NCBI GenBank assembly: GCA_903813345.2
Contig: CAIIXF020000005.1
Coordinates: 42,199,394 to 42,263,393, forward strand
Source: Owenia fusiformis
Lineage: Eukaryota; Annelida; Polychaeta; Sabellida; Oweniidae
DNA length: 64,000 nt
Direction: 5' to 3'
Shown: piece by piece, positions 23,645 to 49,973 of the stretch
How positions within the stretch are numbered: position 1 is the stretch's first letter
Layout of the letters: each line of letters opens with the position of its first letter
Notes under the pieces: generated by a model
What the model saw: only the letters and a program-made list of their open reading frames with translations
Told to the model about the DNA's origin: nothing
Database searches by the model: none
Position numbers and translations under genes: made by a program

Positions 23645-24808
23645 CCCCACATTGTTACTATACATGTACATGGTTAAGGAAAGCAGTTCTCCCCACATTG
23701 TTACTATACATGTACATGGTTAAGGAAAGCAGTTCTCCCCACATTGTTACTATACATGTACATGGTTAAGGAAAGCAGTTCTCCCCATTGTTACTATACA
23801 TGTACATGGTTAAGGAAAGCAGTTCTCCCCATTGTTACTATACATGTACATGGTTAAGGAAAGCAGTTCTCCCCATTGTTACTATACATGTACATGGTTA
23901 AGGAAAGCAGTTCTACCCATTGTTACTATACATGTACATGGTAAAGGAAAGGAGTTCTCCCCATTGTTACTATACATGTACATGGTTAAGGAAAGCAGTT
24001 CTCCCCATTGTTACTATACATGTACATGGTTAAGGAAAGCAGTTCTCCCCATTGTTACTATACATGTACATGGTTAAGGAAAGCAGTTCTCCCCATTGTT
24101 ACTATACATGTACATGGTTAAGGAAAGCAGTTCTCCCCATTGTTACTATACATGTACATGGTTAAGGAAAGCAGTTCTCCCCATTGTTACTATACATGTA
24201 CATGGTTAAGGAAAGCAGTTCTCCCCATTGTTACTATACATGTACATGGTCAAGGAAAGCAGTTCTCCCCATTGTTATTATACATGTACATGGTTAAGGA
24301 AAGCAGTTCTCCCCATTGTTACTATACATGTACATGGTTAAGGAAAGCAGTTCTCCCCATTGTTATTATACATGTACATGGTTAAGGAAAGCAGTTCTCC
24401 CCATTGTTACTATACATGTACATGGTTAAGGAAAGCAGTTCTCCCCACATTGTTACTATACATGTACATGGTTAAGGAAAGCAGTTCTCCCCATTGTTAC
24501 TATACATGTACATGGTTAAGGAAAGCAGTTCTCCCCATTGTTACTATACATGTACATGGTTAAGGAAAGCAGTTCTCCCCATTGTTACTTTACATGTACA
24601 TGGTTAACGAAAGCAGTTCTCCCCATTGTTACTATACATGTACATGGTTAAGGAAAGCAGTTCTCCACATTGTTACTATACATGTACATGGTTAAGGAAA
24701 GCAGTTCTCCCCATTGTTACTATACATGTACATGGTTAAGGAAAGCAGTTCTCCCCATTGTTACTATACATGTACATGGTTAAGGAAAGCAGTTCTCCCC
24801 ACATTGTT
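23645..24808. repeat. 44-bp minisatellite, left array
   Basis: About 26 head-to-tail copies of a 44-bp unit (ATTGTTACTATACATGTACA, TGGTTAAGGAAAGCAGTTCT, CCCC), a few of 46 bp with CCCCACATTG. Nearly all carry TATACATG. Each unit holds the palindrome CATGTACATG. Because 44 is not divisible by three, three units make 44 codons, which gives the repetitive MYMVKESSSPH-type ORFs; these are not genes. A Helitron-like family fragment (GATAACTCAAATACCGG) precedes it at 23405-23500. Confidence 0.95.
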
Positions 24809-24814
24809 ACTAAA

Positions 24815-30033: not shown

Positions 30034-32582
30034 TTAAGGAAAGCAGTTCTCCCCATTGTTACTATACATGTACATGGTTAAGGAAAGCAGTTCTCCCCAT
30101 TGTTACTATACATGTACATGGTTAAGGAAAGCAGTTCTCCCCGCATTGTTACTAAACATGTACATGGTTAAGGAAAGCAGTTCTCCCCATTGTTACTATA
30201 CATGTACATGGTTAAGGAAAGCAGTTCTCCCCATTGTTACTAAACATGTACATGGTTAAGGAAAGCAGTTCTCCCCATTGTTACTAAACATGTACATGGT
30301 TAAGGAAAGCAGTTCTCCCCGCATTGTTACTAAACATGTACATGGTTAAGGAAAGCAGTTCTCCCCATTGTTACTATACATGTACATGGTTAAGGAAAGC
30401 AGTTCTCCCCATTGTTACTATACATGTACATGGTTAAGGAAAGCAGTTCTCCCCATTGTTACTATACATGTACATGGTTAAGGAAAGCAGTTCTCCCCAC
30501 ATTGTTACTATACATGTACATGGTTAAGGAAAGCAGTTCTCCCCATTGTTACTATACATGTACATGGTTAAGGAAAGCAGTTCTCCCCACATTGTTACTA
30601 TACATGTACGTGGTTAAGGAAAGCAGTTCTCCCCACATTGTTACTAAACATGTACATGGTTAAGGAAAGCAGTTCTCCCCATTGTTACTATACATGTACA
30701 TGGTTAAGGAAAGCAGTTCTCCCCATTGTTACTATACATGTACATGGTTAAGGAAAGCAGTTCTCCCCATTGTTACTAAACATGTACATGGTTAAGGAAA
30801 GCAGTTCTCCCCACATTGTTACTATACATGTACATGGTTAAGGAAAGCAGTTCTCCCCATTGTTACTATACATGTACATGGTTAAGGAAAGCAGTTCTCC
30901 CCACATTGTTACTATACATGTACATGGTTAAGGAAAGCAGTTCTCCCCATTTTTACTATACATGTACATGGTTAAGGAAAGCAGTTCTCCCCATTGTTAC
31001 TATACATGTACATGGTTAAGGAAAGCAGTTCTCCCCACATTGTTACTATACATGTACATGGTTAAGGAAAGCAGTTCTCCCCATTGTTACTATACATGTA
31101 CATGGTTAAGGAAAGCAGTTCTCCCCATTGTTACTAAACATGTACATGGTTAAGGAAAGCAGTTCTCCCCACATTGTTACTATACATGTACATGGTTAAG
31201 GAAAGCAGTTCTCCCCACATTGTTACTAAGCATGTACATGGTCAAGGAAAGCAGTTCTCCCCACATTGTTACTATACATGTACATGGTTAAGGAAAGCAG
31301 TTCTCCCCACATTGTTACTAAGCATGTACATGGTTAAGGAAAGCAGTTCTCCCCACATTGTTACTATACATGTACATGGTTAAGGAAAGCAGTTCTCCCC
31401 ATTGTTACTATACATGTACATGGTTAAGGAAAGCAGTTCTCCCCATTGTTACTATACATGTACATGGTTAAGGAAAGCAGTTCTCCCCACATTGTTACTA
31501 AACATGTACATGGTTAAGGAAAGCAGTTCTCCCCACATTGTTACTATACATGTACATGGTTAAGGAAAGCAGTTCTCCCCATTGTTACTATACATGTACA
31601 TGGTTAAGGAAAGCAGTTCTCCCCATTGTTACTAAACATGTACATGGTTAAGGAAAGCAGTTCTCCCCACATTGTTACTATACATGTACATGGTTAAGGA
31701 AAGCAGTTCTCCCCACATTGTTACTAAGCATGTACATGGTTAAGGAAAGCAGTTCTCCCCACATTGTTACTATACATGTACATGGTTAAGGAAAGCAGTT
31801 CTCCCCACATTGTTACTAAACATGTACATGGTTAAGGAAAGCAGTTCTCCCCACATTGTTACTAAACATGTACATGGTTAAGGAAAGCAGTTCTCCCCAC
31901 ATTGTTACTATACATGTACATGGTTAAGGAAAGCAGTTCTCCCCACATTGTTACTAAACATGTACATGGTTAAGGAAAGCAGTTCTCCCCAAATTGTTAC
32001 TATACATGTACATGGTTAAGGAAAGCAGTTCTCCCCATTGTTACTATACATGTACATGGTTAAGGAAAGCAGTTCTCCCCCCATTGCTACTATACATGTA
32101 CATGGTTAAGGAAAGCAGTTCTCCCCACATTGTTACTATACATGTACATGGTTAAGGAAAGCAGTTCTCCCCATTGTTACTAAACATGTACATGGTTAAG
32201 GAAAGCAGTTCTCCCCATTGTTACTATACATGTACATGGTTAAGGAAAGCAGTTCTCCCCATTGTTACTATACATGTACATGGTTAAGGAAAGCAGTTCT
32301 CCCCATTGTTACTATACATGTACATGGTTAAGGAAAGCAGTTCTCCCCATTGTTACTATACATGTACATGGTTAAGGAAAGCAGTTCTCCCCATTGTTAC
32401 TATACATGTACATGGTTAAGGAAAGCAGTTCTCCCCACATTGTTACTATACATGTACATGGTTAAGGAAAGCAGTTCTCCCCATTGTTACTATACATGTA
32501 CATGGTTAAGGAAAGCAGTTCTCCCCATTGTTACTATACATGTACATGGTTAAGGAAAGCAGTTCTCCCCATTGTTACTATA
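30034..32582. repeat. 44/46-bp minisatellite, right array
   Basis: About 57 copies of the same unit as 23645-24808. Unlike the left array, it mixes TATACATG, TAAACATG and TAAGCATG variants and 44-bp (CCCCATTG) with 46-bp (CCCCACATTG) units. Repetitive ORFs between 30056 and 32553 are artefacts. Confidence 0.95.
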
Positions 32583-33218
32583 CCTCTTGACTACCTGGAG
32601 TGACGAGATTTCTTGTCACCTCAGAAATGACCTTGAAACCCAGAGTGACGAGAAAATCCGTCACAAAATTGTTCACTAAAATTGCTCTTATTTGAACAAT
32701 TTTCATCCAATTTACACAGAAATTGTTTTAAAACATGTCGAACTTATCTCTGCCATCTAATTTTATGAAGTTGATCATTTAAAGTTGTATAGGTATATAG
32801 TAAAATGTCAAAAGGTGGCAAAAATGAAAAATTCTCTGGTTTGAAACTGAATTTAGAGCCTGGGATTCAAGAGGTTAATTGAAGGGATATTTCAATACAC
32901 AAATTAAGGATTGATATAAGAGAATGTAAAACATAGCACTATTCTAAGGAAGAAGTTATAGCACTAAAGATATACATCGAAATATACTTCACTTAAACAG
33001 GCCTTCAACATCCCCTACCTCTCTCCTTTCTGACAATGGTTGGACAATGGTTGGACAATATTGAAGAGAGTGTTTGAATTGACATTAAAACAACATGCAG
33101 CCAGTGAGGCAGCATGTGTATTTCGTTAAAGTAATGCCTACAGGTATTAAGACTTCTATTGTTTCCCAGGCACTGATTTATCCGCTTCTTTGCTTAACAT
33201 TTTCAGTAAATTGAATTT
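32583..33218. other. Unassigned intron 3 DNA
   Basis: CTGGAGTGACGAGATTTCTT and CCCAGAGTGACGAGAAAATC near 32597-32660 form a short direct repeat. Nothing else is recognised. Confidence 0.5.
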
Positions 33219-41970: not shown

Positions 41971-41978
41971 AAAAGGTG

Positions 41979-42308
41979 CATATGTTAGGCTAATGCATTA
42001 TCTAGAGAAAAGTACTCAAAGAGATGATCAAATAATTTGAAATTCGAGACAGGGAAGGTACAAACACCCCACCAACATTTTTTCAAAAATGTTTTCCAGA
42101 TTTTCATCCCCTTCAACTCACATTTTTTCAACGTTTAATGCATTAACATGTTGCAATTATAGACACAAGTAACCTCTTCAAATAATTTGGACCTTTTTCA
42201 AAAATATATTCCTGATTTTCATCCCCTTCCACTCATTTTTTCAATGTTTTATGAATCAATATGTTGCATTTGTAGGGTTAGGAAAAGGTCTTAAAAAGAA
42301 AATATGTT
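41979..42308 (+). repeat. Long inverted repeat, left arm
   Basis: GCATATGTTAGGCTAATGCA, then an internal tandem duplication of about 130 bp (CCTGATTTTCATCCCCTTCC, CTCATTTTTTCAATG), then TTTGTAGGGTTAGGAAAAGG. The reverse complement of nearly all of it lies at 48188-48392. Confidence 0.88.
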
Positions 42309-42695
42309 TCAAGTGGGATAAAGTGGAAAACAATATTTCCCATTGTCACAGGGTCGGGTTCTTTATACCTTAGCTGATGTTAATAATATGAAAACTGTTG
42401 GTTGTTTTTGAATTAAAATTAAAAATCTATTTCAAAGTTAATAAACATATTTACAAATTTACAGTTTGCGATGGAATTTTCCAAATAAAATTCTACCTTT
42501 AACTTTCCTTATCTTAACACTAATCTAATTAACTTTTCTAATAACTAAATTAACTCACTTCCAATAAACAATAGTTTTCAAATTAAATTTTTATATACTC
42601 AACAAGAAGTATATTTGCACTACTGTATATAATTGTGACCGCTCACTATTGTCATTAGTAAAGCCTGCTGTCGTCAATAAAATGTCAATTTTATG

Positions 42696-42908
42696 ATAAA
42701 TTTTAACTTATTTTAATAAGTTTAGTTTATGGATAACGAAATAAACCACGCCTGCCTAACCTTATATAGAGTTTGGCGTGACTTGTTTGACATGTTGTGG
42801 TTGCACACGGATGCACACGTATTATTAGAGCTATATTTGTAAAGTTATTTCTTCTTTCAAATGTAACCAAGCTGAATACACGTTGGTCTACATTTGTAAT
42901 TCAAGTAT
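42696..42908 (+). repeat. Split direct repeat A1
   Basis: 213 bp starting ATAAATTTTAACTTATT and ending TAATTCAAGTAT; identical to 45876-46088. Confidence 0.95.
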
Positions 42909-42944
42909 TATCACTTATAAACAAATAGAAGTCATAGAAATACT

Positions 42945-43217
42945 ATGCCTAACAAACAAATAGCAGACGAGTCCGTGAAGATGCTGGGATATAGGTTTCT
43001 CTCACGTTTAACAAAAACGACGTTGTTGGACAAATTCGGGACGATGGTAATGATATTACCGCTCATAGCACATCAGTTGGAAATGAAGAACCTCGAGAAA
43101 CGAATGTTGCGCTTGCTTCCAAGACTTATGATGAAGCGGCTGATATCACGGCATAACCTAGTACACGTCATCACAGAACATACCTCAGAACCAAGGAGCT
43201 ACTGTTTGGGGCTATAA
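42945..43217 (+). pseudogene. Possible gag-like remnant of the YR retroelement
   Basis: The position directly after A1 suits a first ORF. One frame gives a 90-residue ATG-started peptide. An overlapping frame (about 42990-43155) reads NKNDVVGQIRDDGNDITAHS and ends KTYDEAADITA, whose polar, low-complexity composition looks more like decayed coding sequence. No zinc knuckle or other diagnostic motif; the assignment rests on position. Confidence 0.35.
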
Positions 43218-44298
43218 TAATACTAACCATGACACCAAGTCACCACGTGAGAAACTATGACAGGCCCTCCAACAAAGATATAATTTATAACTCAGGTAAT
43301 GTCATTCTAGCATGTTGACAATATTTACGTACTATCGTTCAAACATGGTCTACATACCCCATACTCAATGTTATATTTTACTATACTTATGTTCTAAAGT
43401 GTATATATTCACGGATTTTCAGAATTTGCATTTGATCCCCGTATAAGATGAGTCTATTTGAATAGTACGTGCATCTATTATAAATAATTGTGAAGATCAT
43501 GATCAAGATGCGATACTTATAACTAAGTACTCATATTCAGATACACACAACCAGCAGCTTATGCTTATAAGGGAGTCTTTCGGTTATAAGTGCATCCATT
43601 TGAATATATACCCTTTACATTCGTTCGACTTCACTTCTTGAAAGTGATCTTCCTAGTTTATAACTAGATTCTGCGCGCAGGGTACCATTTGGAGCCAGTT
43701 TCCAAAGCACTCCGATGAATGATTGATTGCATTAAAGGGACAACAAGGCCTGTAGAGAGAAACCTTTTCTTTTCTTATGGAGCTAGCAGGGCAACGTTTG
43801 GCTTAACATTTCAATTGGGATACCTATTTTCGTAAATTTATTGATAAGCTATCATTTTCAGCAGTAGGGAGTGTAACTTCAGTTCAGGGCTTCTATAAAA
43901 GAAGTCCCACCTATAGATTTTAACATCTACCATGTTTTCAAGAGGGAAATCAGCTAAAATAATGTTCATCCAGGGTTTTCCTTGGGGATTATGAAAGTAT
44001 AAGTTAGTCTTCATGAAATATCCAAACTGGAATATCTTTTAGTCTGGTCCTTGATCGGTCAGCATTAATTGTTGCACCTTTAATTTTTATCGTATCTATA
44101 AAAAATTAGCTTCTTCATGGCACGTAAAAACAGCTCTCACGATCTACAAGTCACATTGTTTATACTTTCTAACTTGCGATTTTCAGAGGTTGTTTGTAAG
44201 ATTTGTATACTGCTTGGTGATTTATGTTACAGAATTCCTCAAGACAATCCTCGGAAATCCACCGGATAGCTGCTAGTGTGATATTCATCTACGTATTC

Positions 44299-44382
44299 AC
44301 AACATTGGACATTTCAACTATATTAAATCCCCACATGCTTCTCTTCATTGGACTTACTCAGTGCGCATGGGGTCTGAGTTGA
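44299..44382 (+). pseudogene. RNase H-like remnant of the YR retroelement
   Basis: The frame reads ILNPHMLLFIGLTQCAWGLS then stop. It resembles the first RNase H strand of DIRS/Ngaro elements (hydrophobic run, T-D-A-S-x-x-x-W-G-A), with the catalytic Asp replaced (G-L-T-Q-C-A-W-G). The match is weak alone but sits in the right order before the recombinase remnant. A further fragment at 44660-44727 (HTLAFLRVSLVRL) resembles the recombinase L-A-F-x-x-L-R-V-S-E block. Confidence 0.4.
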
Positions 44383-44877
44383 CCCCCCTACTTTTTCTGT
44401 AATACACTACAGTTTTTAAGAGGGTTAGGTCACCGGATTAGAAGCATTTGCGCAATGGCACCTTTGCACAAGAATAGTTCAAAGGATTCCACCCTTCTAT
44501 TAACTCTGCCTCTCTGGCGTTTCGATGAAATCCCATCCCATCAACATAAAGCAGGCAGATTATAGTTTATCAGTGGCTACAAAAGCAACATAAACCACTA
44601 GTGGACACCCTTAGAAAGGATTCTTCGACCCTTATGCAACCATTATTGTGAAAACAGCACACACCCTCGCCTTCCTCCGAGTTTCACTAGTCCGACTCAA
44701 ACGAACTATAAGGGTCTACGGGTGAAAGTCATTGCACCTGTCTGGTAAAACTTAATGAACTATCCACTTCTCTTCTTCGAAGACTGGTCCATAAAACATT
44801 AACATAATTTGGCCAGAAAACAAATTGAACCATCAACAGCCGAGAGCTATTTCATTGTTACGAAAGACTGGACATAT

Positions 44878-45063
44878 CTATTCCGCACACGTTTTACTAA
44901 CAATCTCAGCATATTAGGCATTGACCATCATTAATATAAGGGGATTTTCCTCCGTACCGGTCCAAGTATACAAGCTGCTACCGCACGAATAGGGGACCAT
45001 CTCATTAAAAATTCGTTCCAAGGTCTAGAGCCAGACATAGCGAAAGACCCAAACATCGGGTAG
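44878..45063 (+). pseudogene. Tyrosine recombinase C-terminal remnant
   Basis: In one frame: LFRTRFTNNLSILGIDHH-stop-YKGIFLRTGPSIQAATARIG, then DHLIKNSFQGLEPDIAKDPN. It aligns with the retroelement recombinase pattern x-L-G-x-D-x-x-x-Y-x-G-H-S-F-R-I-G-A-A-T-x-A-A-x-x-G-I-P-D-H-L-I-K. The Arg of H-x-x-R is kept, the His is replaced by Ile, one TAA lies in frame, and the region of the nucleophilic Tyr is not recognisable. Inactive. Confidence 0.75.
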
Positions 45064-45341
45064 AAATAGTCTGACGTTAACACAGAGGATTACTGATCTC
45101 TCTGAGAGTGGAGTAAGCAAGGCCTCGGCAACGGTGTATCAATCTGAATTTAACTCGTATACGTTATTTTTTAATGCAAAACAATAGTAGCCATACAAAA
45201 ACAATGTTCCATGTTTCAGCGAAAAACTACTTCTTTATTTTGTTGTAATAGCATATTAATATCTTCTATTACAATTGGGGTTCCCATATGCTTCACTAAT
45301 TTCACTTTTCCCAGTGAAATATCTGCTTCGCACATGGGTTG

Positions 45342-45882
45342 GCAATTATTCGTTTCAACTCATTCTTCCCCAACTGCAATTCATTACATTTTAATGATAG
45401 TGCAGCTGCTTCAAGATAAACCAGTTCATAGTATTCAATTATGTAAATATATATCGCTTTCTATGTACATAATTGTCTCCAATTTCAAACAATCATGTTC
45501 GCAACGCGACTTATCTAGCTGATAAGACAGGTACACTCTACGGTTTACCGTCATGATTGTTTGAAAGTGAATTAGGTTTACTTGGGCTTTTTCCCGACAA
45601 TCACGGTCCCGCAGGGCCACAGTTCCGCAGAGCTGGCTGGAGGACCCCGCGCATGGTCTCAACTCTAGCACCGATTGTCTCCTAAGTTAATACCACTTAA
45701 TGACTTATGCATATACGCAATTGCGTCACAACGGTGACTTCGCTATCATTTTTCAATGAACATTCTTTTGAGGCATAGGGAATAAAGCCAATTAATAGTT
45801 GATTGTATATATTTGGATGCAGAATTAAATATATTCATATTTTCTTGTTTCTAATTGATTGTTTTGTTGTTAGACATAAATT
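45342..45882 (+). repeat. Split direct repeat B1
   Basis: 541 bp from GCAATTATTCGTTTC to GTTAGACATAAATT; one difference from B2 (TAGTTGATT versus TAGATGATT). It contains a 15-bp perfect inverted pair, TTTCAAACAATCATG (45483-45497) and CATGATTGTTTGAAA (45552-45566). Confidence 0.95.
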
Positions 45883-46088
45883 TTAACTTATTTTAATAAG
45901 TTTAGTTTATGGATAACGAAATAAACCACGCCTGCCTAACCTTATATAGAGTTTGGCGTGACTTGTTTGACATGTTGTGGTTGCACACGGATGCACACGT
46001 ATTATTAGAGCTATATTTGTAAAGTTATTTCTTCTTTCAAATGTAACCAAGCTGAATACACGTTGGTCTACATTTGTAATTCAAGTAT
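45876..46088 (+). repeat. Split direct repeat A2
   Basis: Identical to A1; begins inside the last 7 bp of B1 (shared ATAAATT). Confidence 0.95.
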
Positions 46089-46161
46089 CCACCGCCATCC
46101 CCATCCTCATCACCTTCATTGAATTTTGCTAGTACGTTTTGGCATAGTTTGTTTTCAAGTT

Positions 46162-46702
46162 GCAATTATTCGTTTCAACTCATTCTTCCCCAACTGCAAT
46201 TCATTACATTTTAATGATAGTGCAGCTGCTTCAAGATAAACCAGTTCATAGTATTCAATTATGTAAATATATATCGCTTTCTATGTACATAATTGTCTCC
46301 AATTTCAAACAATCATGTTCGCAACGCGACTTATCTAGCTGATAAGACAGGTACACTCTACGGTTTACCGTCATGATTGTTTGAAAGTGAATTAGGTTTA
46401 CTTGGGCTTTTTCCCGACAATCACGGTCCCGCAGGGCCACAGTTCCGCAGAGCTGGCTGGAGGACCCCGCGCATGGTCTCAACTCTAGCACCGATTGTCT
46501 CCTAAGTTAATACCACTTAATGACTTATGCATATACGCAATTGCGTCACAACGGTGACTTCGCTATCATTTTTCAATGAACATTCTTTTGAGGCATAGGG
46601 AATAAAGCCAATTAATAGATGATTGTATATATTTGGATGCAGAATTAAATATATTCATATTTTCTTGTTTCTAATTGATTGTTTTGTTGTTAGACATAAA
46701 TT
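46162..46702 (+). repeat. Split direct repeat B2
   Basis: Copy of B1 ending GACATAAATT. A 73-bp unique segment (46089-46161, CCACCGCCATCCCC to TTTTCAAGTT) separates it from A2. Confidence 0.95.
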
Positions 46703-48187: not shown

Positions 48188-48392
48188 GGTATCTTTAAAA
48201 TCCCTGCTTGAAATATATTTTCTTTTTAAGACCTTTTCCTAACCCTACAAATGCAACATATTGATTCATAAAACATTGAAAAAATGAGTGGAAGGGGATG
48301 AAAATCAGGAATATATTTTTGAAAAAGGTCCAAATTATTTGATTGTCTCTTTAAGTACTTTTTTTAGATAATGCATTGGCCTAACATATGCC
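48188..48392 (-). repeat. Long inverted repeat, right arm
   Basis: Reverse complement of the left arm, with CCTTTTCCTAACCCTACAAA to GCCTAACATATGC; it lacks the internal duplication. The arms are 5.9 kb apart and enclose the tyrosine-recombinase retroelement and a LINE fragment. Confidence 0.88.
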
Positions 48393-48734: not shown

Positions 48735-49069
48735 GTAACATTATCCCACCAAAATATAATCTTTGGTAACTCAAATACTTAAATCAATATCTAAGCACAA
48801 GTGTTAAATGGTAAACCTGTCATAATGAGAAGAATAGACCCTATTTATTCTAAAATCATGATCTAACCTGATAAGAAATAATGTCTAACACCCCATTCCG
48901 GTGACAGCTTAACTCAACCCCAAGTTAACTCAACTCAACCCTGTAAAACTTAAAACCCAGTAAAACTCATCCCCATTCATTTCTGCAATGTCATAAGTCA
49001 TGTTAGTTCATAGTCATTGTATACTTCGATAATACTTTGTAAAAATATTTGACAGTCAAACATATTTTA

Positions 49070-49555
49070 TGCAATGCACATCGCACATATGCACATTGCA
49101 TACACAATGCACATCGGACATATGTACATTGCATACGCAATGCACATCGTACATATGTACATTGCATACGCAATACACATCGCACATATGCACATTGCAT
49201 ACACAATGCACATCGGACATATGTACATTGCATACGCAATGCACATCGTACATATGTACATTGCATACGCAATACACATCGCACATATGCACATTGCATA
49301 CGCAATGCACATCGTACATATGCACATTGCATACGCAATGCACATCGCACATATGAACATTGCATACGCAATGCACATTGCACATATGCATATTGCATAC
49401 GCAATGCACATTGCATACACAATGCAAATCGCACATATGAACATTGCATACGCAATACACATCGCACATATGCATATTGCATATGCAACGCACATTGCAT
49501 ACACAATGCAAATCGCACATATGCACGTTGCATATGCAATGCACACCGCAAAGTA
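49070..49555. repeat. 33-bp satellite open in most frames
   Basis: About fifteen copies of ACATATGCACATTGCATACG plus CAATGCACATCG. The unit length is divisible by three and lacks stops in nearly all frames, so long ORFs arise on both strands (49003-49809 minus, 49049-49642 plus, and others). Peptides are pure repeats such as CALRMQCAYVR and MHIAYAMHIAH. No coding evidence beyond openness. Confidence 0.93.
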
Positions 49556-49973
49556 CAAAGTACACTATACATGTACCTGCATGTATATTTTTGGGAAGTT
49601 TGGATGAGTTCTGGAATATGTGACCACTTGATTTGCCTTTGAAATGTTAATATACTCATTACACTTTTGTAACATAACAAACATGAGAAGAATTTTAATC
49701 TGAAACTAATTCTCGCTCCATATACCAAACAATACATTTGAGAAGTGGTCCTAAGTACATGCTCATGAAAAGTTTGTATGTATACAGGTAGTTGTTCCCT
49801 TGGTGACACAGTTTTCTCCTTATATTGTTAAATGACCATATATACACTGTAACAGCTCATTCTTTCCTCACCTAGCTTTAAGTCTGTAAACAAGTCACTT
49901 TTCTGCATGCATCAAGGACACTTAATGCTGTTAAGTCTGATAAATGATAGTAATATCTTTTTTTTCTTTCTAG

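Follow-up and report, generated by a model that had tools for sequence, protein, structure and literature searches.

A very probable Ngaro-type retroelement insertion with split direct repeats and a decayed, mosaic interior

The window analyzed here, a stretch of 64,000 nucleotides, contains at 42696-46702 two pairs of nearly identical direct repeats, A and B. They surround an interior (42909-45341, plus strand) in which the six-frame list of open reading frames and an analysis of the frames gave no usable reading frame. This raises the question of what kind of element the repeats belong to, and how a copy without usable frames came to lie there. A1 (42696-42908) and A2 (45876-46088) are identical at 213 of 213 positions, while B1 (45342-45882) and B2 (46162-46702) agree at 540 of 541, with a T/A difference at 45799/46619 as the sole mismatch. 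The order A1-interior-B1-A2-B2 put forward in the original prediction is therefore present, with the addition of a 73-bp spacer (46089-46161, plus strand) that the prediction did not include and that occurs only between A2 and B2. The motif ATAAATT, said to be shared by B1 and A2, is indeed their overlap (45876-45882, plus strand), where it forms an internal copy of the recombination core. The longest exact repeat of the region measures 457 nt, whereas those in 20 first-order Markov sequences simulated with the same composition reach 12-14 nt.

In the 498-Mb eukaryotic, animal-like assembly that contains the window, A and B match around 20 other places, twenty of which were fetched and mapped. 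The full order A1-interior-B1-A2-spacer-B2 recurs in L011 (C12) and L015 (C2), and its 3′ part is retained in L013 and L017. L012, L016, and L014 consist of A-interior-B only, and L018, L019, and L024 of A-spacer-B only. The spacer is conserved in L011, L013, L015, L017, L018, and L019, and has diverged in L024. This split-repeat order is likewise found, built from different sequences, in three sister families (L076, L077, and L078). Four other loci (L026, L027, L028, and L029) are B1-A2-B2 remnants; they share their internal deletions and their right flank, and therefore probably spread inside a larger repeat.

The repeats are concerted within elements. A1 and A2 differ at 0/206 positions in the window copy, 0/206 in L011, and 1/206 in L015, and B1 and B2 at 1-8 of ~538. 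Between elements, the window copy differs from L011 at 3/206 positions in A and 5/539 in B, and from L015 at 7/206 in A1 and 15/538 in B2. This is the pattern predicted if both repeats are copied in one replication cycle. Near-identical repeats are also expected after a recent segmental duplication of unrelated sequence, which the original prediction had named among the findings that would count against it, or from an assembly artefact. However, concerted repeats combined with the same order at independent loci exclude segmental duplication. With ~20 copies elsewhere, sister families of the same order, and the clean empty sites described below, the chance that either a duplication or an artefact accounts for the feature is practically negligible.

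A second alternative is that two DNA elements, a long A-interior-B and a short A-spacer-B, came to lie head to tail with no retroelement replication involved. Both units exist alone in the copies listed above, and the B1/A2 overlap resembles a tandem junction. We nevertheless consider this very unlikely: copies at independent loci, and three sister families of different sequence, repeat the four-part order; A1 equals A2 and B1 equals B2 within elements but not between them; and in relatives the DNA flanked by the repeats codes for reverse transcriptase (RT) and RNase H.

The boundaries of the insertion could be read from empty sites. When the two flanks of the window copy are joined, all 300 nt align to C60:2569-2868 at 99% identity, and the joined sequence has many further genomic copies at 97-98%. 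Empty sites were also found for L011, L014, and L015, which brings the resolved copies to four. At 4/4 of these sites, TTTTAAC...GACATAAA is inserted at ^ in ...NNNNN^N..., with neither a target-site duplication nor a loss. Read in this way, the insertion in the window spans 42701-46700 on the plus strand, exactly 4,000 bp, and is made up of A1 (42701-42908), the interior, B1 (45342-45880), A2 (45881-46088), the spacer, and B2 (46162-46700). The original prediction placed ATAAATT at both outer ends as well; the motif is found there, but the left ATAAA (42696-42700), which has the same sequence as the element core, is already present in the empty site and is thus target DNA rather than part of the element.

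The five target bases to the left of nine junctions read ATAAA, ATTAT, TTTAA, TTTAA, ATAAT, TTGAT, ACAAA, TTAAA, and GCATT. They resemble the ATAAA of the element, and position 4 is an A in 8/9 (binomial P ~9e-4). A search for empty sites of L018, L019, and L012 found none, and L024 gave one weak spanning match. L011 (453-998, minus strand) interrupts a short-chain-dehydrogenase-like reading frame that belongs to a tandem cluster (C12:7434947-7443773) with at least 5 further copies of the target site; intact tandem copies lie close by. The insertion in the window is flanked by inverted arms (41978-42319 and 48200-48391) that are 98% identical over 142 bp; given these arms and the many genomic copies of its joined flanks, it sits in another dispersed repeat.

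Direct repeats around a retroelement interior could also belong to an LTR or Penelope-like element joined in tandem to part of a second copy. LTR retrotransposons are characterized by identical LTRs, an rve integrase, and a 4-6 bp target-site duplication, a combination that this family does not have. No target-site duplication accompanies the four resolved insertions, the repeats enclose a tyrosine recombinase (YR; HxxR...Y) rather than an rve integrase or GIY-YIG, and A and B are unlike each other and split. An Rfam search of the element, covering ribozymes and other RNAs, gave no match, and thus no Penelope-type hammerhead. An element of this type is highly improbable, in agreement with the earlier claim that the repeats are not LTRs.

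Relatives with recombinase genes, whose absence the original prediction would have counted against itself, do exist: near-relatives on C2 and C9 carry the same repeats along with Gag, RT, RNase H, and YR frames. In L015 and L016, these frames lie on one strand in the order Gag, RT, RNase H, YR. Gag, of 399 and 394 aa, respectively, has a C-terminal CX2CX4HX4C knuckle; the RT matches PF00078 (4e-7), and the RNase H matches PF13456 weakly (1e-3, under the curated cut-off). The YR, of 364 aa, is encoded in a frame overlapping that of RNase H and contains R...K...HxxR...W...Y. Aligned with its paralogues, it shows LRCGEF, a conserved SK, HSFRxG, and LGRWSS..YRRYI, and the tyrosine-recombinase set of R, K, HxxR, W, and Y is invariant or nearly so. 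Among YR paralogues of this genome there are matches to PF00589 and PF02899; the YR of the L015/L016 family by itself stays below the Pfam Phage_integrase model, which the paralogues alone reach, and weakly. PDB sequence searches starting from either the single YR or its alignment gave only a marginal match to XerD (E 0.91) and chance matches.

L015 and L016 are the two closest coding relatives, but a lesion interrupts the RT-RNase H frame in each of them. They cannot be called intact, and no fully intact helper with the exact repeats of the window copy was found among the relatives. In the sister families L076 and L077, the Gag, RT-RNase H, and YR frames are all uninterrupted. No Pfam match to a methyltransferase was obtained in the coding relatives, and the L015 interior outside the four frames amounts to ~255 bp, which leaves no room for one. 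At another locus (L033, C9:13071406-13072458), a single 544-aa open frame combines gag-like with YR-like sequence without an intervening RT.

Ngaro elements have the layout A1-[ORFs]-B1A2B2 (PMC8547959, PMC4157794), and the type is recognized by split direct repeats, an RT, a YR, and no methyltransferase (PMC4157794; PMC8547959). The family studied here has this repeat order, with the internal repeats downstream of the YR, and no target-site duplication at its four empty sites. RT and RNase H lie between the repeats in L015 and L016, despite their lesions, with the YR downstream of the RT in the same orientation; Gag, RT-RNase H, and YR follow one another on one strand as in Ngaro, and a methyltransferase is missing. 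In the window copy, RT and RNase H are absent and the YR has decayed. This copy differs from Ngaro in having no coding capacity and a mosaic interior, and in the 73-bp spacer between A2 and B2. PAT elements, of the DIRS group, are defined with a methyltransferase (PMC4157794). The family resembles them in its split direct repeats and in the Gag zinc knuckle, known from Pat1, but it has no methyltransferase, and the interior of L015 could not accommodate one. The published criteria of repeat order and domain content thus support a Ngaro-type family, so that of the earlier assignment to Ngaro/PAT-type elements the first half stands and the second does not. Ngaro and DIRS sequences have been reported from annelids and many other animals (PMC8556966), and the kind of element is therefore already known.

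Based on the repeat order, the concerted repeats, the duplication-free insertion at a core-like target, the enzyme-encoding relatives, and the amplification of a broken interior described below, we are highly confident that a non-autonomous Ngaro-type tyrosine-recombinase retroelement with split direct repeats inserted here recently. From how this family is known to work, we infer an RNA step, a circle, and a supply of enzymes in trans. The RNA of the element would presumably be copied by the RT and RNase H of related coding elements, and the internal B1-A2 junction would supply the sequence that joins the end of B2 to the start of A1 in a circular DNA, with a predicted junction of GACATAAATTTTAAC. 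The YR would then recombine the circle with a similar AT-rich chromosomal site at a core of ~5-6 bp (ATAAA/T), an exchange expected to leave TTTTAAC...GACATAAA inserted with no target-site duplication.

Of the genes, the window copy keeps only debris of gag and the YR. As it has no coding capacity, it must owe its mobility to another source. The gag remnant (42953-43216, plus strand) was detected by tblastn with the L015 gag frame, at 36% identity (E 1e-7 to 2e-7). Its two in-frame stops, at gag positions 46 and 103, are common to the window copy, L011, L012, and L014, and stops at YR positions 70 and 71 are common to the window copy, L011, L012, and L013. Identical stops in copies at different loci indicate that an already broken interior multiplied, which would be achieved most simply by enzymes supplied in trans.

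The original prediction had described recombinase and RNase H traces in the expected order inside the element. Traces of the YR are present, but RNase H was undetectable in the window copy at E 1e-3, and the YR fragments stand in the wrong order, with a C-terminal one (44833-45009, plus strand; one stop; L015 YR residues 267-329) ahead of an N-terminal one (45056-45244, plus strand; two stops; residues 27-89). A Pfam search of the small frames of the window itself gave no match. Compared to L011 and L012, the window copy has lost ~1 kb comprising most of the YR, leaving a scar with 14 bp of microhomology (45263-45276, plus strand); these bases, interior positions 2355-2368, occur on both sides of the deleted segment in L011.

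Interior positions 253-1961 (43161-44869, plus strand) are 88% identical to L049, and positions 253-879 are 83% identical to L050. These two belong to another YR-retroelement lineage, whose 5′ and 3′ ends are different ones and ~96.5% identical between L049 and L050. The flanking interior parts match L015 at 70-88%, and the repeats match the coding relatives L015 and L016 at 95-98%. The disorder of the YR pieces follows from the interior being a mosaic of two lineages. Recombination between two YR-retroelement lineages, with ends from the L015 type, explains the mosaic and probably came about by template switching during reverse transcription. When L047-L050 were searched for A and B as a test of end swapping, both were absent altogether. 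Within the interior, 43732-44085 is a very abundant dispersed repeat, with thousands of first-look candidates, that is already present in the old relatives L047-L049.

Five copies (L017, L020, L021, L022, and L025) start at ATATGCTTCAC or no more than a few bases away, a point that adjoins a hairpin (TTTCACT..AGTGAAA) ~56 nt 5′ of B1; in the window copy, ATATGCTTCAC and the hairpin occupy 45286-45336 (plus strand). All five end at the normal GACATAAA. These units are 577-625 bp long, and L017 measures 1,423 bp. L020 has a clean empty site, and L017 has one with a few target bases lost at the left end. The ATATGCTTCAC-to-GACATAAA copies either constitute a second short form or reflect truncation at a favored point.

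A short form is also known for VIPER in Trypanosoma: SIRE consists of A2, ~30 bp of unique DNA, and B2, and it was left open whether SIRE is mobile or a mere remnant, and from which event it arose (PMC6681497). L018, L019, and L024 likewise are exactly A + spacer + B; VIPER, however, belongs to another clade, and the window family additionally contains the A-interior-B form. As the repeats within one element are so similar, short forms arising by homologous recombination (A1 with A2, or B1 with B2) look the same as those arising by YR resolution.

A tentative proposal, which we think doubtful, is that the recombination cores within one element serve as exchange points for YR resolution and for the regeneration of ends, with a second short form ending at the hairpin. 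If true, YR resolution between cores would yield separate A-interior-B and A-spacer-B circles that reinsert alone, and could be a general origin of SIRE-like short forms. Ends would be regenerated from the B1-A2 junction of another element, so that a dead mosaic interior keeps gaining fresh ends from coding relatives, and the unit with a fixed left end at the hairpin 5′ of B1, found in five copies, would be the second short form. Little is understood about YR retroelements, and how they integrate has mostly been inferred. The window family provides base-resolved empty sites for several insertions, which define the core, and natural short forms side by side in one family (A-spacer-B, A-interior-B, and hairpin-B). 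These short forms could be used to test the open question on SIRE (PMC6681497).

Other repeats were seen in the window. Two tandem arrays, at 30034-32583 and 23645-24814, have a period of ~44-46 bp and are ~96% alike, and a long array of short tandem units at 49043-49827 has open frames in several phases.
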